Shown in pieces: positions 4,564-60,190 of a stretch of 64,000 bases of DNA (positions are counted from its first letter, which is position 1; the number at the start of each line of letters is the position of its first letter). The DNA comes from Flagellimonas onchidii (lineage in GTDB: Bacteria; Bacteroidota; Bacteroidia; Flavobacteriales; Flavobacteriaceae). The notes beneath the pieces are model-generated. The model made no database searches. It was not told the DNA's origin and saw only the letters and a list, made by a program, of their open reading frames with translations. The position numbers were made by a program, and so were the translations under genes. The stretch spans positions 1 through 64,000 of the forward strand of contig NZ_SRXX01000011.1 of assembly GCF_004804315.1 (NCBI RefSeq). The letters run 5' to 3'.

Positions 4564-6015
4564 TTATGGTTGATAGACCATTTTTTTGTTCCTTAAAACC
4601 TTAGGCTTTGAAACCTTCGGTTTGCCATATCCCAAAATGGATAAAAAATCTCCGGCGGTCTGTTGTTCAGAAAAAACACGGGTCTTTAGGTTCCCTTCAA
4701 CATCTTTATCGATTAAAATATGTTTGGGCTGGGGAATCAAACAATGTTGCAACCCACCAAAACCACCTATGGTCTCTTGGTAGGCTCCTGTATTGAAAAA
4801 ACCTACATACAATGGCCGTTCCTTTTTGAACTTGGGAAGGTAGATGGCATTCATATGCTGCTCCGAATTGTAATAATCATCACTGTCGCATGTTAGCCCC
4901 CCCAATAACACTCTTTCGTATTCCTCGTTCCAGCGATTAAGGGAGAGCATGATAAATCGCTTGCTAATGGCCCACGAATCTGGAATGGTTGTTATGAACG
5001 AAGAATTGATCATGTTCCATTTCTCCCGATCATTCTGCTGTTTTTGATACAGGACTTGATAAATGGCCCCACCACTCTCACCCACAGTGAAGCTGCCAAA
5101 CTCGGTAAAGATGTCCGGAACCTCAACATTTGCTTCTCGGCAAGCCTGATTTATTTGGTTAACGATCTCATCCACCATGTACTCGTAATCGTAATCAAAT
5201 GCCAGTGAGTTTTTAATGGGAAAACCTCCGCCAATATTCAAACTGTCCAGTGTAGGGCATATTTTCTTTAGGTTGATGTATACCTTTAGGCATTTTAAAA
5301 GTTCGTTCCAATAGTAGGCAGTATCCCTAATTCCTGTATTGATAAAAAAGTGGAGCATTTTTAACTCAACTTTTGGATTGTCCTTAATAGCCTTTGAATA
5401 AAATGGAACTATGTTCTTATAACCTATGCCCAATCTTGAGGTATAAAACTCAAATTTGGGCTCTTCTTCAGAGGCAATCCGGATTCCTACTTTGAAGTTT
5501 CCGTGAATTTCATTCCCAAGTAGATCGAGTTCTTCAAAATTATCGATGATGGGGATGCAGTTTTTGTGGCCTTTGTTTATGAGTCGGGCAATTTTTTCAA
5601 CATATTCATCCCTTTTGAAACCGTTGCACAGCACAAAGGTCGAATCTGAAATCTTACCCTCAGCTTTCAGGTGTTCCACAATGTCAATATCGAACGTAGA
5701 AGAAGTCTCAATATGGATATTATTTTTGAGTGCTTCGTTTAGAACGTGTTCAAAATGTGAGCTCTTGGTGCAATAGCTATAATGATATGCACCAGCATAG
5801 TTATGTTTATGAATTGCTGTTGCGAACCATTTTTTGGCCCGCTGGATATTCTCGGATATTTTTGGGAGATAGGTGAACTTAAGGGGTGATCCATAACGGT
5901 GAATCATTTCCATAAGGTCAACCCCGTGAAAGTGCAAATTGTTCTCCACAAGTTGAAACTCCCTTTGTGGAAAATCATAGGTCTGTTCAATCAAATCGAT
6001 GTATTTGGTCTTCAT
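4564..6015 (-). CDS. speA: Arginine decarboxylase, PLP alanine-racemase-fold type
   Basis: Type III PLP-dependent decarboxylase that makes agmatine. The PLP lysine is probably K84 in YSYCTKSSHF; glycine-rich SLNIGGGFPIKNS and the C-terminal PLYVGFFNTGAYQ with Tyr near GGFGG are family marks for phosphate binding and the second-subunit active site. At 483 residues it is shorter than enterobacterial SpeA (about 630) and matches the Bacteroidota form, which lacks the large insert. It heads the operon arginine decarboxylase, agmatinase, DHS-like enzyme, small protein, a complete path from arginine through putrescine to homospermidine. Other basic amino-acid decarboxylation cannot be excluded. Confidence 0.85.
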   Translation of the reverse strand: MKTKYIDLIEQTYDFPQREFQLVENNLHFHGVDLMEMIHRYGSPLKFTYLPKISENIQRAKKWFATAIHKHNYAGAYHYSYCTKSSHFEHVLNEALKNNIHIETSSTFDIDIVEHLKAEGKISDSTFVLCNGFKRDEYVEKIARLINKGHKNCIPIIDNFEELDLLGNEIHGNFKVGIRIASEEEPKFEFYTSRLGIGYKNIVPFYSKAIKDNPKVELKMLHFFINTGIRDTAYYWNELLKCLKVYINLKKICPTLDSLNIGGGFPIKNSLAFDYDYEYMVDEIVNQINQACREANVEVPDIFTEFGSFTVGESGGAIYQVLYQKQQNDREKWNMINSSFITTIPDSWAISKRFIMLSLNRWNEEYERVLLGGLTCDSDDYYNSEQHMNAIYLPKFKKERPLYVGFFNTGAYQETIGGFGGLQHCLIPQPKHILIDKDVEGNLKTRVFSEQQTAGDFLSILGYGKPKVSKPKVLRNKKMVYQP

Positions 6016-8730: not shown

Positions 8731-9405
8731 GTGTTATCATTTTTCTCAAAATATAAGTTCTTCGGAATGGTGTTGCTTGGATTATCCGCTGTGATCATCT
8801 ATCTTTTTTACAACGCCCTTCAACCAAAAAAAATGCTTCCGGTATTTCAACCTTCAATGGTAGATCAATCACTGGTAGATAGCACCCTTCATTATAAAAA
8901 GAAGTACCACAGCATTGTCGATTTTGAACTTATTAATCAAAATGGGGAAAAAATCACACAGGACGATTACAAGGACAAAATATATGTTGCGGATTTCTTC
9001 TTTACAACCTGCCCTACCATTTGCCCAATAATGACCAAAAACATGGCTCAAATCCAAAATTCAATTTTGGAGGATAAGGATGTGCTTTTGTTGTCCCATT
9101 CAGTTACCCCAGTTATCGATTCTGTCCCTCAATTGAAAAAATATGCCCTTGAAAAGGGGGTTGTTGACAGTAAATGGAATCTAGTCACAGGAGATAAGAA
9201 ACAGATATATGAATTGGCTAGAAAATCGTACCTAGCGGTTAAAAATGATGGTGATGGAGGGCCTTACGACATGATTCACACAGAGAATTTCATCCTCGTT
9301 GATAAGGAAAGAAGAATTCGTGGGTTTTATGATGGAACCAACAAGGAAGAAATTGAAAAATTACTTTCAGATTTGGAAATCCTAAAATCCAGCTACGCAG
9401 AATAG
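8731..9405 (+). CDS. SCO1/SenC-family copper chaperone / thioredoxin-like protein
   Basis: Membrane-anchored thioredoxin-fold protein that delivers copper to, or reduces, the Cu-A site of cytochrome c oxidase. One N-terminal membrane helix (about residues 10-28, FGMVLLGLSAVIIYLFY) is followed by the SCO domain with the CxxxC copper motif TTCPTICPI (Cys94 and Cys98) and the distal His in DMIHTENFILVD. I chose GTG 8731 (MLSFFSKYKFF) over an upstream TTG at 8722, because the TAnnTTTG box at 8717-8724 overlaps that TTG. It precedes feoAB by 88 bp but has its own promoter. Confidence 0.9.
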   Translation: MLSFFSKYKFFGMVLLGLSAVIIYLFYNALQPKKMLPVFQPSMVDQSLVDSTLHYKKKYHSIVDFELINQNGEKITQDDYKDKIYVADFFFTTCPTICPIMTKNMAQIQNSILEDKDVLLLSHSVTPVIDSVPQLKKYALEKGVVDSKWNLVTGDKKQIYELARKSYLAVKNDGDGGPYDMIHTENFILVDKERRIRGFYDGTNKEEIEKLLSDLEILKSSYAE

Positions 9406-9453
9406 ACTCCAATATCCAAACCATTTTGCAGCGCACATGTTCGCTTTTTTCCC

Positions 9454-9461
9454 TATTTTTG
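9454..9461 (+). promoter_or_regulatory. TAnnTTTG (-7) promoter box of the feo operon
   Basis: TATTTTTG lies 32 bp before the feoA GTG start, giving a leader of roughly 25 nt. No Fur-like palindrome was recognised next to it. Confidence 0.5.
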
Positions 9462-9493
9462 CTCTTACTTAAAATCAATCTAAATAATATTTA

Positions 9494-9736
9494 GTGGTTA
9501 CGGTTGCGGAATTGGAACATGGACAAAAGGGAGTGATAAAAGATTTTTCAAATGATATTCTCCCCATCAAACTATTGGAATTAGGGTGTCTGCCAGGGAA
9601 CATTGTTGAACTTGTACAGGTTGCTCCTTTGAATGACCCCATTTACATCAATGTTAACGGAAGTCATATTGCCATTCGGAGAACGCTTGCCAAGCAGATT
9701 GAAATTGATATCCAAGAAGACCCCAAAGCCATATGA
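9494..9736 (+). CDS. feoA: Ferrous iron transport protein A
   Basis: 80-residue SH3-like cytoplasmic protein that works with FeoB in ferrous iron uptake. The conserved core LLELGCLPGNIVELVQVAPL (residues 33-52) and NVNGSHIAIRRTLAKQI (about 55-71) are typical. The start is GTG at 9494; no in-frame ATG precedes it, and this choice gives the family's normal length. The stop overlaps the feoB ATG by 4 bp, so translation is probably coupled. Confidence 0.92.
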   Translation: MVTVAELEHGQKGVIKDFSNDILPIKLLELGCLPGNIVELVQVAPLNDPIYINVNGSHIAIRRTLAKQIEIDIQEDPKAI

Positions 9737-11925
9737 GCAAAAACATCAATGTTGCACTAATTGGCAATCCCAATACTGGAAAAACCTCAGTTTTTAATGC
9801 CCTCACAGGTCTAAAACAAAAAGTCGGTAACTACCCCGGAATCACAGTTGAAAAGAAAATGGGGGTCTGCAAGCTACCCAACGGTGTTAAAGCCAATATT
9901 TTAGATCTTCCCGGAACCTATAGTTTAAATACCACCTCATTGGACGAAAGTGTAGTGGTGGAAGTCCTTCTCAACAAAAACGACAAGAGCTATCCTGATG
10001 TTGCAGTCGTGGTATGCGATGTGGAAAACTTGAAAAGGAACCTACTACTTTTCACCCAAATCAAGGATTTAAAGATTCCAGCTATTTTGGTTATCAATAT
10101 GGCCGATCGTATGTCTAGAAAGGGTATTTCGTTGGACGTTGCTGCCTTGGAAGAAAAACTGGACACCAAAATAGCCTTGGTCAGTACAAGAAAAAACAAT
10201 GGTGTTCCGCGCATTAAAGAACTCATTGCAGATTATGCTTCCTTGTCCGCCGACCCAAATGTTGATACTTCAAGGATTTCACCAGAGTATTTTTCCCGCT
10301 TGCAAAAAGCTTTTCCCAATGAAGATTTGTACAAACTCTGGTTGGTCATTACCCAAGATGTCAATTTCACGGATATTGAAAAGAAGCGTATAGAAGATGC
10401 TACTTCCTTTTCGACCAAATCCAAAACAGAGCTCAAAAAATTACAGCATAAAGAAACCGTGCTGCGGTATCAGTTTATCAATAATACCTTAAAAGAAACC
10501 TACAAAGTTGACCTTCAAACCGCAAAAGGACTAAGGGCATCTCTAGATAAAATTTTGACCCATAAAATATTTGGGTATGTCATTTTCTTTGCCATTTTGC
10601 TATTGATATTCCAAGCCATTTTTGATTGGAGCACTTATCCAATGGATTTTATCGACGAGCAATTTGCCATAGCTAGTGAGTGGTTAAAAAACACGTTACC
10701 TCCTGGTGTTTTTACTGATTTGTTAGCAGAAGGAATCTTGGCAGGTATTGGAGGTGTTGTAATTTTCATTCCGCAAATCGCCTTTTTATTTCTCTTTATT
10801 TCCCTTTTGGAAGAATCAGGGTATATGAGCAGGGTGGTTTTTTTAATGGATCGATTAATGCGTCCCTTTGGATTGAGTGGAAAAAGTGTCGTTCCTTTAA
10901 TTTCGGGAACTGCCTGTGCTATTCCGGCAGTAATGGCCACCCGTACCATCGAAAACTGGAAAGAGCGGTTGATCACTATTTTGGTAACCCCATTTACCAC
11001 CTGTTCGGCAAGACTTCCTGTTTATTTAATTCTGATTGCATTGGTAATTCCAGAAGGCAGATTTTTGGGTTTAAGCTATCAGGCCCTGACCTTAATGCTA
11101 CTATATCTCATTGGATTTGGCATGGCGCTTTTTTCAGCCATGGTTTTGAACAAAATCCTGAAAATAAAGAGTCGTTCCCTTTTTATGGCCGAAATGCCCA
11201 CTTATCGATTGCCTTTGCTTAAAAATGTGGGCTATACCGTTTTGGAAAAAACCAAAAGCTTTGTTTTTGGAGCTGGAAAAATCATTTTGGCCATTTCCAT
11301 TGTCCTATGGTTTTTGGGGTCAAATGGAATTTCGGATGATTTCAAAAATGCCGAAAGCATCGTAACCCAACGAATCGAAGAACAAGGCCTTACTCCGTAC
11401 AGTAAGAATTACATTCAAAACAATCTTGATGGCTATTCTGAGGAAGGGAAACAAGACTCCATCCGAATAATGACCCCTATCCTAAAGGAAAGGGCCAGAG
11501 CACAGGAAATTGCAGGCTATAAATTAGAACATTCCTATATAGGTTATGCGGGCAAAGCTATTGAACCTGTAGTCAAACCTTTGGGTTACGACTGGAAAAT
11601 AGGGATTGCAGTTTTGACTTCATTTGCGGCACGCGAAGTTTTCGTTGGCACCTTAGCCACAATATACAGTGTTGGCAGCGATGAGGAAGAGACTATTAAA
11701 AACAGAATGGCGGCTGAACTGGATGCTTCTGGCAAGAAACCCCTTTTTAATTTGGCCTCAGGCATTTCCTTGATGCTATTTTATGCCTTTGCCATGCAAT
11801 GCATGAGTACACTGGCCATCGTAAAGCGAGAAACCAACACCTGGAAATGGCCTTTGCTTCAACTCCTTTTTATGAGTGTTTTTGCGTATCTTGTAGCGTT
11901 GACCGCTTTTCAAATCCTTAACTAA
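9733..11925 (+). CDS. feoB: Ferrous iron transporter B (GTPase-permease)
   Basis: Inner-membrane Fe(II) transporter with an N-terminal small-GTPase domain. G1 is GNPNTGKTS (residues 10-18), the G3 region is DLPGTYSLN (about 57-65), and G4 appears as INMADR. Two Gate motifs follow in the membrane part, including FTTCSARLPVYLIL and AAREVFVGTLATIY. At 730 residues it fits the family (about 700-770). It overlaps feoA upstream and a 49-residue Cys-rich partner downstream by one base, making a three-gene operon. Confidence 0.96.
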   Translation: MSKNINVALIGNPNTGKTSVFNALTGLKQKVGNYPGITVEKKMGVCKLPNGVKANILDLPGTYSLNTTSLDESVVVEVLLNKNDKSYPDVAVVVCDVENLKRNLLLFTQIKDLKIPAILVINMADRMSRKGISLDVAALEEKLDTKIALVSTRKNNGVPRIKELIADYASLSADPNVDTSRISPEYFSRLQKAFPNEDLYKLWLVITQDVNFTDIEKKRIEDATSFSTKSKTELKKLQHKETVLRYQFINNTLKETYKVDLQTAKGLRASLDKILTHKIFGYVIFFAILLLIFQAIFDWSTYPMDFIDEQFAIASEWLKNTLPPGVFTDLLAEGILAGIGGVVIFIPQIAFLFLFISLLEESGYMSRVVFLMDRLMRPFGLSGKSVVPLISGTACAIPAVMATRTIENWKERLITILVTPFTTCSARLPVYLILIALVIPEGRFLGLSYQALTLMLLYLIGFGMALFSAMVLNKILKIKSRSLFMAEMPTYRLPLLKNVGYTVLEKTKSFVFGAGKIILAISIVLWFLGSNGISDDFKNAESIVTQRIEEQGLTPYSKNYIQNNLDGYSEEGKQDSIRIMTPILKERARAQEIAGYKLEHSYIGYAGKAIEPVVKPLGYDWKIGIAVLTSFAAREVFVGTLATIYSVGSDEEETIKNRMAAELDASGKKPLFNLASGISLMLFYAFAMQCMSTLAIVKRETNTWKWPLLQLLFMSVFAYLVALTAFQILN

Positions 11926-53027: not shown

Positions 53028-53390
53028 ATGCGCTGGTTTATTCTTGTTTTAGTCCTTCTTATCCAAAATGTGTTATCTGCTCAAGAGTTGTTGGAAAGAG
53101 CAATCAATTTTCATGACCCAAACCAACAGTGGAGCAAATTTAACGGCTCGTTTGAGGTACTCATGAAGACCCCTGGTTCAACTGACCGCTTAAGTGTGAT
53201 AAGCATGGACTTTCCTAGACAGCAATTTGCCCTTGAGGTCAAAAAGGATAGCATATTCTATACCTATATCTTTGATAAGGACCGATGTGAAACAAGCTTA
53301 AATGGTTCCAAGGAAATTTCAGATGAAAATCGAAAAAAGTATCGGTTGACTTGTGATGGTGGAAAGATGATGCAGGATTACTACACCTAG
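53028..53390 (+). pseudogene. 5' part of a DUF6503 gene split by an insertion
   Basis: Residues 1-18 are a signal peptide (MRWFILVLVLLIQNVLSA), then a DUF6503-like domain (ELLERAINFHDPNQQWSKFN ... CDGGKMMQDYYT) that stops abruptly at TAG 53388-53390. The stop is made from the last TA of the att core and the first G of the element. The rest of the gene is found 6.47 kb away at 59850-60190. Joining the halves across one copy of ACTACACCTA keeps the frame and gives about 230 residues, like the intact paralogue at 53431-54153. It belongs to the phosphate porin/PiT operon. Confidence 0.9.
53380..53389. repeat. Left attachment core (attL), ACTACACCTA
   Basis: Direct repeat of 10 bp identical to 59850-59859. 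Left flank is host gene (GATT), right flank is element (GGTTGAAGG). It is the presumed crossover core for the large serine recombinase. Confidence 0.8.
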
Positions 53391-53430
53391 GTTGAAGGTA
53401 TATTTTATGTATCATCATTAATAATCGTTT

Positions 53431-54153
53431 TCAGTTCAAAGATTCGGATTTGGTCAAGGTATCAGTACCCAAGTGTTTATCATCCTTGTTGTAGTACCAC
53501 GCCCTCACTTTTGGCATCTTAATGTTGGCAACCACTTCCATCTCACTCAGTAGGATATACTCCCCATCATTCTTCGATTCATCATGGAAGAATTGGTACA
53601 CTTCCATTGCATAGGTCTTAGGGTCAAAATAGAAGTACCAAGTATCATCACCCACTTCTTTGTCATAAGTAACTTTTAGAACAAGATACTCCTTGCCCTT
53701 GAAGACTTTACTTTGTACAATGGGGTCTAAGTTCGTACCCGTATCCCTAAGTTTCATCGGCAGACCATATAAGTAAAGATAATAGTCCTTCATTGTTCTT
53801 GCACGGTCGCAGTTCAACCTATGCTCTTTTTTCAATTCTTCTGAAATGTCCGTACTGCCGTTCATCTTTAGGATGCATTCACCATCGTTTAGGGTCTGTT
53901 CAGTTGTAACCGTTCCGTTAATTGCGGTCAACTTAAAAAACCCCCTCTGCATATCGACCTCAATTTGGCTTAATCTCTCCCTTCCATCTGGATAGGACAT
54001 TGTGATATACATTTTCTCCTTTAGGTTTCCCCATCTTCCCTCTGGGTCATGATAGGAAATAGTCCTCTCCAACAGTTCGGATGCAGTCAAGGATTGACCC
54101 ATTAAATAGTACGAGCCAAATAGAAATGTCAATGCAAGGAAGCAGCTTTTCAT
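53431..54153 (-). CDS. Intact DUF6503 protein carried by the element
   Basis: 240 residues with a signal peptide (KSCFLALTFLFGSYYLMG), likely periplasmic or outer-membrane. The domain runs from ASELLERTISYHDPEGRWG to the C-terminal WYYNKDDKHLGTDTL. The part after KDYYLYLYGLPMKL is strikingly similar to the 3' half of the disrupted host gene (GKEYLVLKV, WYFYFDP, AMEVYQF, NDGEYILL, WYYNKDDK shared), whereas the N-terminal half is more diverged. At the homologous att position the core is changed (ATTATCTTTA instead of ACTACACCTA), so it should not be a target. It starts 10 bp after the recombinase stop, so it is probably co-expressed. Looks like a replacement for the gene the element breaks. Confidence 0.88.
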   Translation of the reverse strand: MKSCFLALTFLFGSYYLMGQSLTASELLERTISYHDPEGRWGNLKEKMYITMSYPDGRERLSQIEVDMQRGFFKLTAINGTVTTEQTLNDGECILKMNGSTDISEELKKEHRLNCDRARTMKDYYLYLYGLPMKLRDTGTNLDPIVQSKVFKGKEYLVLKVTYDKEVGDDTWYFYFDPKTYAMEVYQFFHDESKNDGEYILLSEMEVVANIKMPKVRAWYYNKDDKHLGTDTLTKSESLN

Positions 54154-54163
54154 ATACTAGATT

Positions 54164-55867
54164 TTAAATCAAATGTGTTACCCTTGCCTCGTGGTCATAA
54201 ATTGGTTCGGGTTCACTATCATAGTAAAAATAGGGTTTATAATCCATGAAGGTAGGCTGAATAGAACCATCTGGCAGCTTAATCTCAAAGCCTTCTCCCT
54301 CAATTACATCGAAATTATCCGAAAGAACCTTGTCATTGACCTCTTTTATAACAGGTACATTGTTCCACCATCTAAGTTCGTCAGATGCTTTTTTAAACTT
54401 TTGTTTAAGCATCTTCCCCGTTAAAATCAATTCAGGATAGTGCCTGTTGACAGCAAAACCTTTCTTTGTGTGAATATAGTATGAAAGGGCAAGTCTTTTG
54501 TACTTGAATACAATGTCAATCCTGCGAACTTTGTCTATTCCGAACACCCCTATTTCATGGATGTATTTTTGAGCCAATTCTCTTTTGACCGTATTTGGTA
54601 GGCTCACAGTACCCTTAAAGTTGAGGTCTGAAAGGTCAGGTTTGTTGTAAGACTGAATTTGTGAACTGACTACTTTTATCTCTCTTGTTAGTTTCTCTCT
54701 ATCTTTTTTGATTCGCTGACTTATGGTTTCTAGTGCCTCTAAAGTCAATGCGTTACTTATTAACATCTCTCCATGTCTTACCTCTTGTTTTAGAAGGTCG
54801 TCCATCTCATCTTGTACGTTCCTTAACCTTTCTTTGAGTTCATCAAGACCATTTTGGTTGGACAGTTCCCTTTCAATGAGGTCTTGGAGGTTATTCAACA
54901 TTACATACCAAACTAGGTCATCAAGGAAAGAGGCATTAATATTTGTTGAAGTACATTTCTTTGGGTCGTCCCTTTTGGTAGCACACATATAATGAGGGTA
55001 TTTTGTCTGCATACCTAAGTATCTATTCCCACAGTTGTTGCACCTAATTAATCCGTTGAGGTAGAACCTATCTGGGTTATGTACTCCCTTAGTAGTAGCG
55101 TTCTGCTCCAAAGTAGCCAATGAACGCTCGAAAAGTTCACGGTCAATCAACGCAGGACATGGTACATGTGAACCTTTGAAATTTCGCTGTCCGTAGTACA
55201 TGGGATTGTGAAGTACTTTAAGAACCGATGTTTTTTTCCATTTGCCACCAAAGTAAGGAGGTATTCTCATACGGTTCAGTCTATCTCGTATTGCCCCTGC
55301 CGTCTCACCATTCGCAGACCACTCAAATATTGACTTTACAATTCCTTCCGTCTCTGGATTTGGTATCAATTCTCGTTCCGACCCTTTGCTATATCCGAAA
55401 GGCATCCTACCATGAACCTTGCCCTCTTTGAAATTCTTTTCAATTACACCTGCAACGTGTTTTTTCGTTAGGTCAACATAGAATTGCCCAGTCGCTGACA
55501 TTATGGAGTCTAAAAGTTTTGCTGTGGGGTCATCGTAATTGAACTTCTCACGGTCATAGTAAATCTCAACTTTATGCCTTCTACAAACCGTTTGCACTTT
55601 CATTCGTGCCTCATCCGACCTATAAAGGCGGTACTGATGCCAAACATACAAATGGGTTATATCACCTGAGACAATATCTAAAAGAAGCTGTGAAAGTCCT
55701 TCTCTTTCGTCTGGGGACGTTGTGCCAGAAACTCCCTCATCCGTATAAGTCCTATATGAAAGTCCAAGTTCAACAGCCATTTCTTTGCCCTTCTCAATTT
55801 GGAAGTCAATCGAACGGTCTTCGTCATCTTCTTTTTCCCCTGAAATTCTTGCGTAGATTCCTAACAT
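54164..55867 (-). CDS. Large serine recombinase (integrase)
   Basis: 567 residues. The N-terminal resolvase domain starts MLGIYARISGEKEDD, with catalytic Ser9 in YARIS and the usual RLYRSDEARMK region. A Recombinase domain (PF07508 type, about 155-270) follows, then a zinc-ribbon (RCNNCGNRYLGMQ ... CATKRDDPKKC, CxxC..C..C) and a coiled coil (about 320-400, LDELKERLRNVQDEMDDLLK). These are the marks of phage and mobile-element integrases that act between short att sites. Its sites here are probably the ACTACACCTA repeats. It lies upstream of the DUF6503 gene on the same strand. Confidence 0.95.
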   Translation of the reverse strand: MLGIYARISGEKEDDEDRSIDFQIEKGKEMAVELGLSYRTYTDEGVSGTTSPDEREGLSQLLLDIVSGDITHLYVWHQYRLYRSDEARMKVQTVCRRHKVEIYYDREKFNYDDPTAKLLDSIMSATGQFYVDLTKKHVAGVIEKNFKEGKVHGRMPFGYSKGSERELIPNPETEGIVKSIFEWSANGETAGAIRDRLNRMRIPPYFGGKWKKTSVLKVLHNPMYYGQRNFKGSHVPCPALIDRELFERSLATLEQNATTKGVHNPDRFYLNGLIRCNNCGNRYLGMQTKYPHYMCATKRDDPKKCTSTNINASFLDDLVWYVMLNNLQDLIERELSNQNGLDELKERLRNVQDEMDDLLKQEVRHGEMLISNALTLEALETISQRIKKDREKLTREIKVVSSQIQSYNKPDLSDLNFKGTVSLPNTVKRELAQKYIHEIGVFGIDKVRRIDIVFKYKRLALSYYIHTKKGFAVNRHYPELILTGKMLKQKFKKASDELRWWNNVPVIKEVNDKVLSDNFDVIEGEGFEIKLPDGSIQPTFMDYKPYFYYDSEPEPIYDHEARVTHLI

Positions 55868-55971
55868 AATACCAAAATACTAATCTATGTTTAATAAAAC
55901 AATATGTAATAATTTTATATTGATTATCTCATAAAATGAGTTAGGTAAATCGTTTGCTACGGCTACAACCT

Positions 55972-56010
55972 AATATTTCGGATATACCCATCTGTGGGAA
56001 ATCGAATATT
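55972..56010. other. Long imperfect hairpin between the two recombinase genes
   Basis: AATATTTCG (55972-55980) pairs with CGAATATT (56003-56010, one bulge), with inner CCCA and TGGG (around 55987-55997). It lies in the 292-bp gap (55868-56159) between the divergent large recombinase and resolvase genes, where a replication origin, res site or regulatory site of the element would be expected. No iterons were found. Confidence 0.45.
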
Positions 56011-56159
56011 TACAATACCCCCCGTTCGATTTATGTAGAATTAAGATTACTTCGTTCCAAATTCAACCTATACCACAGAATAGCACAGTTTTAACATCTA
56101 AAATTTGCACTTTAACGATTATATTTTAGCACATGTTGATAATAGTACACATTTGTTCT

Positions 56160-56774
56160 ATGAAAAAAGCAAAATATATTCGAGTTAGTACAACCGAACA
56201 AAGTACCGAACGACAAAAAGAGAATGGATTTAAGCTGTTTATTGATAAAGTTTCAGGTTCAGTCCCATTTAACGAACGTAAAGCAGCCTCAAAATTGCTT
56301 ATAGAAGCCGATAAGGGCGATTTGAGCGAGGTTCACGTTCACGCTATCGATAGACTTGGGCGCAACACATTGGACATCTTAGAAACCATTAAAACACTTA
56401 CCGAAAAAGGAGTCAATGTTGTATCACAAAAAGAGGGATTCTGTACTCTTGTCGATGGAAAAGAGAATCCAACAGCAAAACTGGTAATTTCAATCATGGC
56501 AACGTTAGCGGAGTATGAATTAAACCTTATCAAGGAACGTCAAAGAGAGGGAATCCAGAGGGCAAAGGAGAGGGGAGTTTATACTGCCAATGGTGGAAGT
56601 AACCCATTAACTGACGAACAGTTTTTAAGCAAGGCTAAAAATGCCTTATGTGCCAAACATCTTAGAGCAGGTGAGAGTATCAGAAGAGCAGCAAAGCTAT
56701 CTGGTGTTTCTAATGCGACTTCACAAAAAGTCAAAAGGATAATGAACTCCGTTAAGAATGTGAGCGTCCTTTAA
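56160..56774 (+). CDS. Small serine resolvase/invertase
   Basis: 204 residues. The resolvase domain begins AKYIRVSTTEQSTERQ with catalytic Ser10, contains AIDRLGRNTLDILETIKTL and the VISIMATLAEYELNLIKERQ dimer helix, and ends in a helix-turn-helix (ESIRRAAKLSGVSNATSQKV). The ATG at 56160 gives the usual N-terminus; nine codons upstream are ignored. Such enzymes resolve plasmid or transposon multimers. With the large integrase it makes two different serine recombinases in one 6.5-kb element. The stop overlaps the convergent polymerase-like gene by 4 bp. Confidence 0.92.
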   Translation: MKKAKYIRVSTTEQSTERQKENGFKLFIDKVSGSVPFNERKAASKLLIEADKGDLSEVHVHAIDRLGRNTLDILETIKTLTEKGVNVVSQKEGFCTLVDGKENPTAKLVISIMATLAEYELNLIKERQREGIQRAKERGVYTANGGSNPLTDEQFLSKAKNALCAKHLRAGESIRRAAKLSGVSNATSQKVKRIMNSVKNVSVL

Positions 56775-57925
56775 GAGTTAGGAACTTTGAGTTCTAATTG
56801 AATATCCATTGTTTCCAACGTATCCCGAATGACAGATTCCACCGTTTTTAAATCTCGCCTGTGAAAGATAATCGAATCGTGTTTGCTAATAGCAGGAACA
56901 CCTATTTCATGTAATTTACGAAGCACCCCATCAATGTAGATTTCAGACTCTTTCTGTTGCATGGCAATTGCAAGTTCCCTGTTGCTACTTTTCCGTTTGT
57001 ACTTCTCGATTATAGCCATAGATTCAGGATAGAGTCTTGTCATTATTCTCTTCGTTTTATTGTCATGATAGTGTTTGGAGTAAATAGTTTTCATGACTAA
57101 ATCCTTTGCTTCTTCACGAGAGCAATCCAGCTTGTCAGCTAATCTTTCATAAAGTACCCCACAAATAGCATCTGTAACAAAATCATCATTAACCTTTGCC
57201 TTTATCATATTTGCTAGAATGGCAAATTGACTGTTTTTGGCATCGATTTCGACAAGGTTGTTAGATTTCATGATATGTTCTACCAGAATAGAAGGCATAT
57301 TAGTAAAGTTGGTATTTAGCCTGTCATTGACTGGACTCATTGAAGCCCTAACAACACCTGACTGTAAAAGTCTGATTGACCTGTACCATGAATAGCGTTT
57401 GAAATTAAGTGAGCCATTTTCAACTGGTAATTCATTGTCTATGAGACTACTTAAAACAGAGTAGTCAATTTCAATAGTCTTTAGGAAATCCAGAAGACCT
57501 TGAAAATATGGTCGGTCAGATTCAGATGGCTGAAAAGCATCTATATTTGTCAAGGATACAACCTCTAGGTCTGCCCAATTAGTAACTATTGAGGGACTTA
57601 TCCGATAGCCTAACGACTTACGTCTAAATTCTGCATAATCATTATCACATTCAACTACTCCCTCACTTATGAGTACGCTTAACCACTCTCTGTATCTGCT
57701 GTTAAATTGTTTCCTAAGAAACTTTGCCCCCATAGGAGAATAGACATCAGGCTGCAACTTCTTGATTAATAATCTGCTAACAATCATGTCCAGAAAATAT
57801 AGGCTGTGATTGGTTTTAATACGACTTAACTCAAGACTGCGAACAGCCTTAACAAGTTCTACTGGCAAACAAACTGCATGTTTAGAAGCTGTTAAAGAGT
57901 GTTTAGAGGGAGTATGGACATCCAT
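56771..57925 (-). CDS. Compact family-A DNA-polymerase-like protein
   Basis: 384 residues, no signal peptide. Three motifs resemble the palm and fingers of family-A polymerases in the right order: A, LVEIDAKNSQFAIL (Asp228); B, REEAKDLVMKTIY (Arg270, Lys274, Tyr282, the R-x3-K-x3-F-x3-Y pattern with Met for Phe); C, SKHDSIIFH (His349, Asp350). The Asp pair would bind two metals. No 3'-5' or 5'-3' exonuclease domain is present. N-terminal 200 residues are helical and unrecognised. I infer a replication or primer-extension protein of the element, perhaps its initiator, but weak similarity leaves room for another role. Confidence 0.6.
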   Translation of the reverse strand: MDVHTPSKHSLTASKHAVCLPVELVKAVRSLELSRIKTNHSLYFLDMIVSRLLIKKLQPDVYSPMGAKFLRKQFNSRYREWLSVLISEGVVECDNDYAEFRRKSLGYRISPSIVTNWADLEVVSLTNIDAFQPSESDRPYFQGLLDFLKTIEIDYSVLSSLIDNELPVENGSLNFKRYSWYRSIRLLQSGVVRASMSPVNDRLNTNFTNMPSILVEHIMKSNNLVEIDAKNSQFAILANMIKAKVNDDFVTDAICGVLYERLADKLDCSREEAKDLVMKTIYSKHYHDNKTKRIMTRLYPESMAIIEKYKRKSSNRELAIAMQQKESEIYIDGVLRKLHEIGVPAISKHDSIIFHRRDLKTVESVIRDTLETMDIQLELKVPNS

Positions 57926-58169
57926 GAAGGTATAACATATAAACCCAGCCTTTATTGTACCTTTATGTTACCACATTTTTAAGTTTACATGAACACTTGC
58001 CCGTCAATTTATAAATAGAAGGTTTGCGTGAGAAGGTTACAACGTATCACAGCTAAACCTACCCTAACATAGAGTACTCTTTTTGGTATTCTTAAATATC
58101 TGTAAACAACTGATAAACATTAATTTAGGTAAACATTTATGTTGTCCCTTCCCATGTCGTATATTCCAA

Positions 58170-58430
58170 TCAAAAATCTGCAATATTTGCCTCAGAAATG
58201 GATATTATGGAGTTGTTTTCAATACTAATAGGACTTTTACCTAGAATCTTTTTAGAAACGTGGTTCAATGCAATAAGATGAAGTGCTTGGAAATGTGAAC
58301 CAACAATGTTTGTATTGATTGCACTTCTGCATAAATCGACAATCTCGTCCTTGCTATATTCGGAATATCGTGAAATTAGTTTGCCAATTTTATCTTTATC
58401 ATTTGGTCTAGGCAAATACCAGTGTTTCAA
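58170..58430 (-). CDS. Hypothetical element protein, 86 aa
   Basis: Not recognised. A small soluble helical protein (KIGKLISRYSEYSKDEIVDL, VGSHFQALHLIALNHVSKKI) with no signal peptide. It is on the minus strand between the polymerase-like gene (245 bp away) and a lipoprotein gene. No promoter box was seen. Confidence 0.5.
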   Translation of the reverse strand: MKHWYLPRPNDKDKIGKLISRYSEYSKDEIVDLCRSAINTNIVGSHFQALHLIALNHVSKKILGKSPISIENNSIISISEANIADF

Positions 58431-58468
58431 CTGAACAATTTTTAAATCTTATGAACTTAAATCAATCT

Positions 58469-58948
58469 TCATTGGAGAGGATATTCATAGTCATTATTCC
58501 AAAAGGCTTTTTTTGTCTCCTTTGAATAAGCTGTTGACCAAAGTTTGCTTTCAACTGGAATCGGAATCGGCAATTCAAACCCATTATAATAAAACACCTC
58601 TTCGTAAAAAGTTAGCTGTTCCTTAAAGATGAAAGTCGTAATAATTTTGGTTAAGGACTGCGTTTCGGACACATGGCTTATCTTAAAATCTTGAGTTTGA
58701 AATTGCCATTGTTCATCCAAGTTCATTTTAATACGATAAATCTTTTCCAATGCCTTCTTTGAATCTGCGGTTCTAGGTGTGATATTATTGTCATCAGAAA
58801 GTTCACTTTGTATAGACTTAAAGCCATCACCATAATACCACTCTATTATGGCTTTTGAATTTTCAATTTCCAAATCAGATGACTTTTTGCCACATGATAG
58901 TATTGACAATAAAACAACAGCAAGTAAGATAATTCTTTTAGTGTTCAT
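58469..58948 (-). CDS. Lipoprotein of the element, 159 aa
   Basis: A lipobox LLSILSC (Cys19) follows a signal peptide, so the protein is a membrane-bound lipoprotein. The mature part (SKAIIEWYYGDGFKSIQSEL ... TTFIFKEQLTFYEEVFYYNG) looks like a small alpha/beta domain; no family is recognised. It is 15 bp downstream of another lipoprotein gene on the same strand and likely co-transcribed. Possibly cargo with a surface or phage-exclusion role, which is only a guess. Confidence 0.6.
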   Translation of the reverse strand: MNTKRIILLAVVLLSILSCGKKSSDLEIENSKAIIEWYYGDGFKSIQSELSDDNNITPRTADSKKALEKIYRIKMNLDEQWQFQTQDFKISHVSETQSLTKIITTFIFKEQLTFYEEVFYYNGFELPIPIPVESKLWSTAYSKETKKAFWNNDYEYPLQ

Positions 58949-58963
58949 AAGCCGTGCGGATTA

Positions 58964-59422
58964 TCATTGCCTTTCCCAAACTGTAAAAGTGTAAATACTA
59001 TCCCCTCCGAAGTCAACACATGGGTCGTCAACTCCGAATTTCATCAAATCGTCCTCAAACTCGACCTCAACTATATCCCTTCTAGTTTCACCGTTGACAG
59101 TAAATAATAACAAATATTTACCATCATCAGTCTTTTCCCAAATACCTTTTTGGTCTTCTATTTCAGTTAGTTCTCCATTAATATAATCCCCATAAGTTCC
59201 ATCAGCATCAAAAACAAATAATGCTCCATCATTTGGATTTTCATTTAGCCTTTCCGTTCTAACGTTTTCCGTACCACAGTAATAATCATTTTCAGACACA
59301 AATTTCCATTTACCAATTATTAAATCTTGGGTTGGATTTTCCTCTTCGTTATCACTTGAACATGATGAAATAATCAGAAGTGTTAAAAACAATAGAGTTT
59401 GAAATATCAATTTTAGCTTCAT
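58964..59422 (-). CDS. Lipocalin-like lipoprotein of the element, 152 aa
   Basis: Lipobox IISSC (Cys21) after a signal peptide. The mature domain has the lipocalin-like pattern of Bacteroidota secreted proteins: LIIGKWKFVSENDYYCGTEN, ALFVFDADGTYGDYINGELT, GIWEKTDDGKYLLLFTVNG and the ending DSIYTFTVWERQ. Ligand and function unknown. It is divergent from the XRE gene at 59519 and heads a two-gene lipoprotein unit. Confidence 0.68.
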   Translation of the reverse strand: MKLKLIFQTLLFLTLLIISSCSSDNEEENPTQDLIIGKWKFVSENDYYCGTENVRTERLNENPNDGALFVFDADGTYGDYINGELTEIEDQKGIWEKTDDGKYLLLFTVNGETRRDIVEVEFEDDLMKFGVDDPCVDFGGDSIYTFTVWERQ

Positions 59423-59518
59423 TAGAATATGTTTAGAATTTCATAAAGAACGTATATTCTTACATATTAGTATCATGCATGCTAACAAAATTAACATCCA
59501 GATTAGTCATATTGCTGT

Positions 59519-59755
59519 GTGCCAATAAACCTAACAGCAGAAGACAGAGAAATTATAATCCAAGTAGGACTTCGTGTGAAGAACCTAAGGAATAACTTGG
59601 GTATTTCACAAGATGAATTGGCACTTAGAGCAGATACCACTAAATCACAGGTTTTCAGAATCGAACATGGCGAAATTAACTGTACATTAGCTACTTTGGG
59701 TAGGTTTGCCAAAGCATTAGGAGTTAATATAAAAGAACTGTTTGAATACGACTAA
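59519..59755 (+). CDS. XRE-family regulator of the element, 78 aa
   Basis: Single helix-turn-helix protein: LRVKNLRNNLGISQDELALR, then ADTTKSQVFRIEHGEINCTL and LGRFAKALGVNIKELFEYD. It starts with GTG at 59519. It lies 95 bp from attR, divergent from the lipoproteins. It probably represses element genes, including perhaps the recombinase, but no operator palindrome was identified. Confidence 0.8.
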   Translation: MPINLTAEDREIIIQVGLRVKNLRNNLGISQDELALRADTTKSQVFRIEHGEINCTLATLGRFAKALGVNIKELFEYD

Positions 59756-59849
59756 TGTATGGATTGAATATTATAAAGGGAGAGTTTCTTGCATTGTACC
59801 CTTGGCATCTGTAATCAAGCTGTATTGAATTATCATGCTCAAAATGAAC

Positions 59850-59859
59850 ACTACACCTA
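59850..59859. repeat. Right attachment core (attR), ACTACACCTA
   Basis: Identical to the core at 53380-53389. Left flank is element (GAAC), right flank is host gene (TTTATATGG). Confidence 0.8.
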
Positions 59860-60190
59860 TTTATATGGGCTTCCCATGAAGCTTAAAGACCCTGGCACTA
59901 TTCTTTCCGATAAAGTGCAAACCAAAACCTTTAAGGGCAAAGAATATTTGGTCTTGAAAGTCAATTATGAAGGTGGTGTTGGAGATGATGTTTGGTACTT
60001 TTATTTTGACCCTAAATCTTATGCCATGGAGGTTTACCAATTCTACCATGCCGAATTAGAAAACGATGGAGAGTATATTCTTCTGGAAGGTTTGGAAGAA
60101 ATCAATGGGATTCTAATGCCCAAAACCCGACTATGGTACTACAATAAGGATGATAAGTTTTTGGGAACCGACATCCTAATAAAGAAATAG
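59850..60190 (+). pseudogene. 3' part of the split DUF6503 gene
   Basis: Continues the frame broken at 53390. From the core it reads YTYLYGLPMKLKDPGT and on through GKEYLVLKVNYEGG, WYFYFDPKSYAMEVYQF and MPKTRLWYYNKDDK to the stop at 60188-60190. It is open for some codons upstream into the element (from 59789) but without a plausible start or signal peptide, so it is probably not expressed as a functional protein. Original gene size after rejoining is about 230 residues. Confidence 0.88.

Follow-up and report, generated by a model that had tools for sequence, protein, structure and literature searches.

An integrative element with a large serine recombinase splits a DUF6503 gene of Flagellimonas onchidii and carries an intact orthologue of its target

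The DNA examined here is a 64,000-nucleotide stretch of the genome of the marine bacterium Flagellimonas onchidii (contig NZ_SRXX01000011.1, positions 1 to 64,000), referred to as the window. Within it, a gene of the DUF6503 family (PF20113) is split by an integrative element that encodes a large serine recombinase (LSR) and, directly behind the recombinase, a second and complete DUF6503 gene. The features that define this arrangement are listed below, the attachment sites being abbreviated as att.

53028..53389, + strand, native DUF6503 gene, 5' half, directly after the PiT transporter gene (PF20113, 55.6 bits)
53380..53389, + strand, left att core ACTACACCTA (core search, flank comparison)
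53431..54153, - strand, carried intact DUF6503 gene, 240 aa, the outermost element gene, 41 bp from the left core (PF20113, 180 bits; LolA/LolB-like fold predicted)
54164..55867, - strand, LSR, 567 aa, with resolvase, recombinase and zinc-ribbon domains (profile matches, alignment)
59850..59859, + strand, right att core ACTACACCTA (core search, flank comparison)
59860..60190, + strand, native DUF6503 gene, 3' half, followed by nadD on the opposite strand (frame, profile and joining analysis)

A search of both strands of the window gave exactly two copies of the 10-bp core ACTACACCTA, on the same strand and 6470 bp apart; shuffled sequence contained a mean of 0.06 copies, and none of 100 shuffles contained two. 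Identity between the two sites extends over exactly 10 bp, with adjoining bases differing on both sides. Joining the flanks at one core gave an open, in-frame DUF6503 protein of 230 residues, which confirms the claim of a preliminary description of this DNA, made from the letters alone, that the gene is split between identical cores and that its halves rejoin in frame. In the unjoined state, the native N-terminal half ends at a TAG codon created by the junction. A short identical core at both ends and a target that can be rejoined, the features expected of an LSR integrative element, are both present, and the gene that has been split is a conserved host gene. Analysis of dyad symmetry at the att sites returned 13 of 22 pairs for attP (shuffle p 0.07) and a p of 0.82 for attB. 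The paired cores and the rejoined gene suggest a precise LSR integration and, because the rejoined native frame is still intact, a recent one.

The recombinase matches PF00239 (67.6 bits), PF07508 (57.1 bits) and PF13408 (41.7 bits) and is full-length, with an N-terminal YARIS motif and four zinc-ribbon cysteines in an alignment with its relatives. Its N-terminal part can be aligned with the TP901-1 integrase, the YARIS motif falling in register with 3bvp and relatives; the catalytic role of the N-terminal serine in serine recombinases is established. The domain order is that of the LSR phage integrases of TP901-1 and phi105, enzymes that use short att cores. However, those integrases are phage-borne and 24-25% identical to the present protein, and no phage structural gene was found here (no structural PHROG at E values up to 0.1 among the 8 proteins scanned for signs of a prophage). 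A 44-bp inverted match of 70% between the native N-terminal half and the LSR gene is probably due to chance.

The carried DUF6503 gene begins 10 bp past the LSR stop codon on the same strand, and its length and profile score bear out the earlier report of an intact copy at this position. For comparison with the wider family, 140 DUF6503 genes were collected, of which 2 were dropped for a stop in translation and 14 for identical proteins, leaving 124. The carried and native proteins are 33-35% identical in the N-terminal half and 71% identical in the C-terminal half, a contrast that is normal for the family, as natural pairs average 41% and 71%, respectively. An origin of the C-terminal half by chimera formation or gene conversion was rejected, since natural pairs with a similar N-terminal identity show 68% (standard deviation 5%) against the 71% found here, and the nearest relatives of the carried protein agree for both halves. 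In the tree of DUF6503 genes, the carried gene falls in an 8-row clade with Zeaxanthinibacter and Cellulophaga sequences (SH-aLRT, the Shimodaira-Hasegawa-like approximate likelihood ratio test, 100) and the native gene in the genus clade; judged by this placement, the carried gene is a member of the target's own orthologous group but derives from another Flavobacteriaceae lineage. Of the 74 sites at which 90% or more of 122 natural orthologues agree, it retains 73, and the sole departure, Thr to Leu, lies inside the att core. A second DUF6503 homologue of this genome lies on another contig.

The DUF6503 family looks periplasmic, with what appears to be a signal-peptide-like start; the predicted fold (PF20113; model m4e82fa5b07e4) is LolA/LolB-like and hints at a role in carrying lipids or lipoproteins through the periplasm. 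The att core spans codons for Tyr-Tyr-Thr-Tyr, a highly conserved stretch of the family, and it is exact in 27 of the 124 DUF6503 genes, the native one included, and present with one mismatch in 43. No other of the 124 matches as poorly as the carried copy, the only one with five mismatches of 10; the five natural genes of its subclade have 3-4. By these counts, the lineage from which the carried version came was not a good target.

We examined the same locus in related genomes, the recurring genus contigs in genome_contigs being named Allomuricauda and Flagellimonas. The preliminary description had proposed looking for uninterrupted DUF6503 genes after PiT, and such a gene was found beside PiT in every one of 29 genus loci, those with the best scores, and nadD was seen on its far side in 27 of them. 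A DUF6503 match above 170 bits is present in 31 of 36 genus genomes, this one included; in G377 the end of a DUF6503 gene lies at the contig edge beside nadD. The native gene is probably cotranscribed with the PiT gene. In one genome (G268, L272), an unrelated-looking LSR gene (8917-10464) was observed about 3 kb from nadD (5188-5763), with no match to the carried protein listed for that genome.

The reading that we favour, with moderate confidence and from sequence comparison, is that this 6.5-kb LSR element carries its foreign orthologue most likely as a stand-in for the DUF6503 gene that it disrupts. In such a scheme, the element's own LSR would recombine attP with attB at the 10-bp core in a host of the Allomuricauda/Flagellimonas type and so break the native gene, while the carried orthologue, read from the opposite strand to the native gene and probably together with the LSR, would take over. 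The LSR should spare the carried copy because the core is absent there (five of 10 positions mismatched), and easy recombination between this copy and the native halves is not expected because the DNA has diverged and the orientation is opposite. With only about eight genes in the element, the presence of the target's orthologue among them seems very unlikely to be a coincidence. The idea of the preliminary description that the element spares its host in this way thus holds for its structural part, a precise LSR integration and an intact orthologue of the target; the sparing itself we infer, and the target is missing in four of the 36 genus genomes.

Several observations, on the target, the carried gene and the recurrence of the design, weigh against this reading. 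Four genus genomes lack DUF6503 between PiT and nadD: in G361, G369 and G371 (L240-L242) the gene is absent, and in G355 (L243) a 387-residue open frame of another kind occupies its position. Outside the genus, in family genomes, the DUF6503 gene of G150 is cut to 96 aa by an in-frame internal deletion (L324, 9288-9578) and that of G088 is a remnant only. Because it is absent or reduced in these genomes, DUF6503 is not indispensable; it is widely kept yet dispensable in some genomes, and a replacement is not needed for life. Transcription from the PiT side could reach the native gene but not the carried one, and a promoter scan gave loose matches only. Synonymous divergence (dS) is saturated for the carried copy, so that selection since capture cannot be read from its ratio to nonsynonymous divergence (dN/dS). 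The preliminary description had also supposed that the core of the carried copy was recoded to stop self-targeting. As an adaptation this was not upheld: in each of the six rows of the subclade to which the carried copy belongs (support 85), the core Thr is replaced by Leu or Gln, and because this is common to the whole subclade the donor lineage probably already had the change.

With regard to recurrence, searches of genome_contigs and viral_contigs, which rely on exact short peptides, gave no close relative of the LSR. LSR matches were obtained in 32 of 349 family genomes, 23 of 71 genus genomes and 28 of 296 order genomes (each tally including this genome) and in 13 of 119 relatives of G340; for the order genomes and the relatives of G340, the neighbourhoods of matches were screened at five short loci only. 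With the best long matches at 36-42% identity, the LSRs compared are distant. The top values were 44% in G497, along 88 residues of a 93-residue frame, and 42% in G421, along 229 residues; no phage or plasmid match reached 60%. A screen of 88 other LSR regions, representing 87 distinct loci, did not reveal the design again, leaving the present case at n = 1. These regions comprised 30 from the first searches, 54 of 96 PF07508 places (places already covered and those with short or broken frames were left out), 3 further genus-search places and L318, which repeats G374. The window itself, used as positive control, was detected under the same settings; the screen reaches target halves up to about 10 kb from their LSR, and three elements in radC were checked separately. 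Hits that were rejected included an IS3-type transposase (L278) and an unrelated small gene pair (L290), the remainder being tandem or dispersed paralogues as judged by coordinates.

The radC elements belong to three of the four best LSR matches by E value in the family and genus searches (G374, G421 and G215; ranks 1, 2 and 4), the remaining one being in G330. They split radC at nearly the same place; the 5' part adjoins the LSR, and some 14 to 33 kb separate it from the 3' part (L106 = G374, L107 = G421 and L086 = G215, with elements of about 14, 23 and 33 kb). They resemble the present element in splitting a conserved gene and in their LSRs, which are 36-42% identical over the aligned part, and the G374 element also has a small serine resolvase; they differ in target, gene order and size (about 14-33 kb). 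No spare radC lies inside any of the three, the other RadC matches of those genomes being outside the elements. RadC-domain matches number eight in the genome studied here, compared with two to four in five relatives searched alongside.

When 95 fetched LSR regions were searched with the carried protein, only one DUF6503 gene was found, in L310, and this does not represent the design, being intact and separated from the LSR by 7.5 kb that includes chromosomal genes. The preliminary description had named recombinase homologues without an adjoining DUF6503 gene as evidence that would tell against it, and these 95 regions come close to that pattern, but the LSRs in question are distant ones. From the side of the carried gene, 80 of 116 homologous loci in genome_contigs were kept and none had a match to P0001 nearby, a test that unrelated recombinases would escape; the carried protein had no match in viral_contigs or the phage collection and one plasmid match of 35%. 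An attP pattern search of viral_contigs gave no matches, and a literature search listed no title on this design, although its terms were narrow and the absence is weak evidence.

Among the alternatives, we regard as unlikely the possibility that the carried DUF6503 is ordinary envelope-changing cargo, a LolA/LolB-like carrier whose kinship to the target would be a by-product of earlier DNA capture inside this gene in another host. The predicted fold, the presence of two putative lipoproteins in the same element and the dispensability of the target in some genomes are consistent with such a role. However, faulty excision from within a gene would be expected to capture half a gene and not a whole one, and the donor subclade, whose five natural genes have 3-4 core mismatches, makes an unlikely earlier home for this LSR. 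We also considered whether the value of the element could lie in an allele swap that turns the native protein off and brings a different version in, for instance to alter a trait of the surface or of trafficking that phages exploit, with host sparing playing no part. Such a role would suit proteins that differ most in the N-terminal half (33-35% identity) and a family that looks periplasmic from its signal-peptide-like start and LolA-like predicted fold, but a defence library scan of seven element proteins matched the helix-turn-helix regulator only, and generically, and a search of the phage collection gave no homologue of the carried protein; we consider this explanation improbable. That two unrelated events are at play, a foreign DUF6503 gained by the element on other grounds and an independent choice of site by the LSR, would accord with the lack of a second example and with the three related LSR elements that have no copy of their target radC, but is highly improbable given that the carried gene sits 10 bp behind the LSR, within the att cores, and is no random gene but the target's orthologue.

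The stand-in reading can be set beside two described systems. The e14 prophage inserts at icd in E. coli and supplies a 3' end that is fused to the native 5' part (PMC6379469). Fungal mitochondrial mobile open reading frames bring a foreign carboxy-terminus to atp6, atp9, cox2 and nad3, resulting in a hybrid gene (PMC3630166). The likeness to e14 is site-specific entry into a conserved gene with element sequence keeping the target frame, and the likeness to the fungal system is entry of a mobile element into a gene of which it carries a horizontally acquired, diverged piece. In contrast to e14, the element described here has a complete gene of its own, apart from the native one and on the other strand, and in contrast to the fungal frames, which combine a homing endonuclease with a C-terminal patch, it pairs an LSR with a whole stand-alone orthologue. 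No in-frame fusion of element sequence to the truncated native part occurs here, where the N-terminal half ends in the junction TAG, and the element supplies coding capacity for the target product as a complete orthologue with 73 of 74 conserved sites. Restoration is by fusion in both systems as these sources present them, and the whole orthologue beside the recombinase is what differs here.

The sequence finding itself is solid and unusual, and a rescue function appears likely from it, with its weight lowered by the single case and the dispensable target. More tentatively, the element may exemplify a strategy of insert-and-rescue, in which an LSR shares one operon with a foreign orthologue of the gene it targets, a copy safe from its attack, a conserved gene is occupied at low cost in many hosts, and the host becomes dependent on the element as the native halves decay. 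In synthetic cleave-and-rescue gene drives, a native copy is broken and an enzyme-resistant copy is supplied. By analogy, the element could possibly be viewed as a natural bacterial counterpart that works by whole-gene replacement across genera and not by end patching; the drives differ in being engineered and nuclease-based, and no drive inheritance is claimed for this element. If the carried gene does replace the target, a mobile element could settle in conserved protein-coding genes without the usual cost, and such genes offer landing sites that are numerous and widely shared. It would also provide one route by which a chromosomal gene is displaced by a distant orthologue (xenologous displacement), and it predicts a dependence of the host on the element that can be tested.

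The rest of the element consists of the following genes.

56133..56774, + strand, small serine resolvase/invertase, 213 aa (frame list, family scans)
56771..57925, - strand, 384-aa protein, function not assigned (remote kin only in five very large uncultured phage records)
58170..58430, - strand, small open reading frame, 86 aa, coding status unsure (no family found)
58469..58948, - strand, putative lipoprotein, 159 aa, inferred from its start (no family above threshold)
58964..59422, - strand, putative lipoprotein, 152 aa, inferred from its start (sub-threshold Lipocalin_4 match)
59519..59755, + strand, helix-turn-helix regulator, 78 aa (family scans)

No convincing relaxase or type IV secretion match, as would mark an integrative conjugative element, was found among the element proteins scanned with Pfam, PHROGs and NCBIfam. 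The 384-aa protein has no Pfam or NCBIfam match above threshold and no kin in plasmids, and its predicted structure (predicted local distance difference test score, pLDDT, 36) was not used; its kin in the phage collection, at about 25% identity, are confined to the five uncultured phage records, which are of 634-735 kb. A small serine resolvase-like protein is also encoded near the LSR in L106 (13385-13984) and L088 (7839-8432), and small resolvases that accompany LSRs are perhaps the resolution system of such elements.

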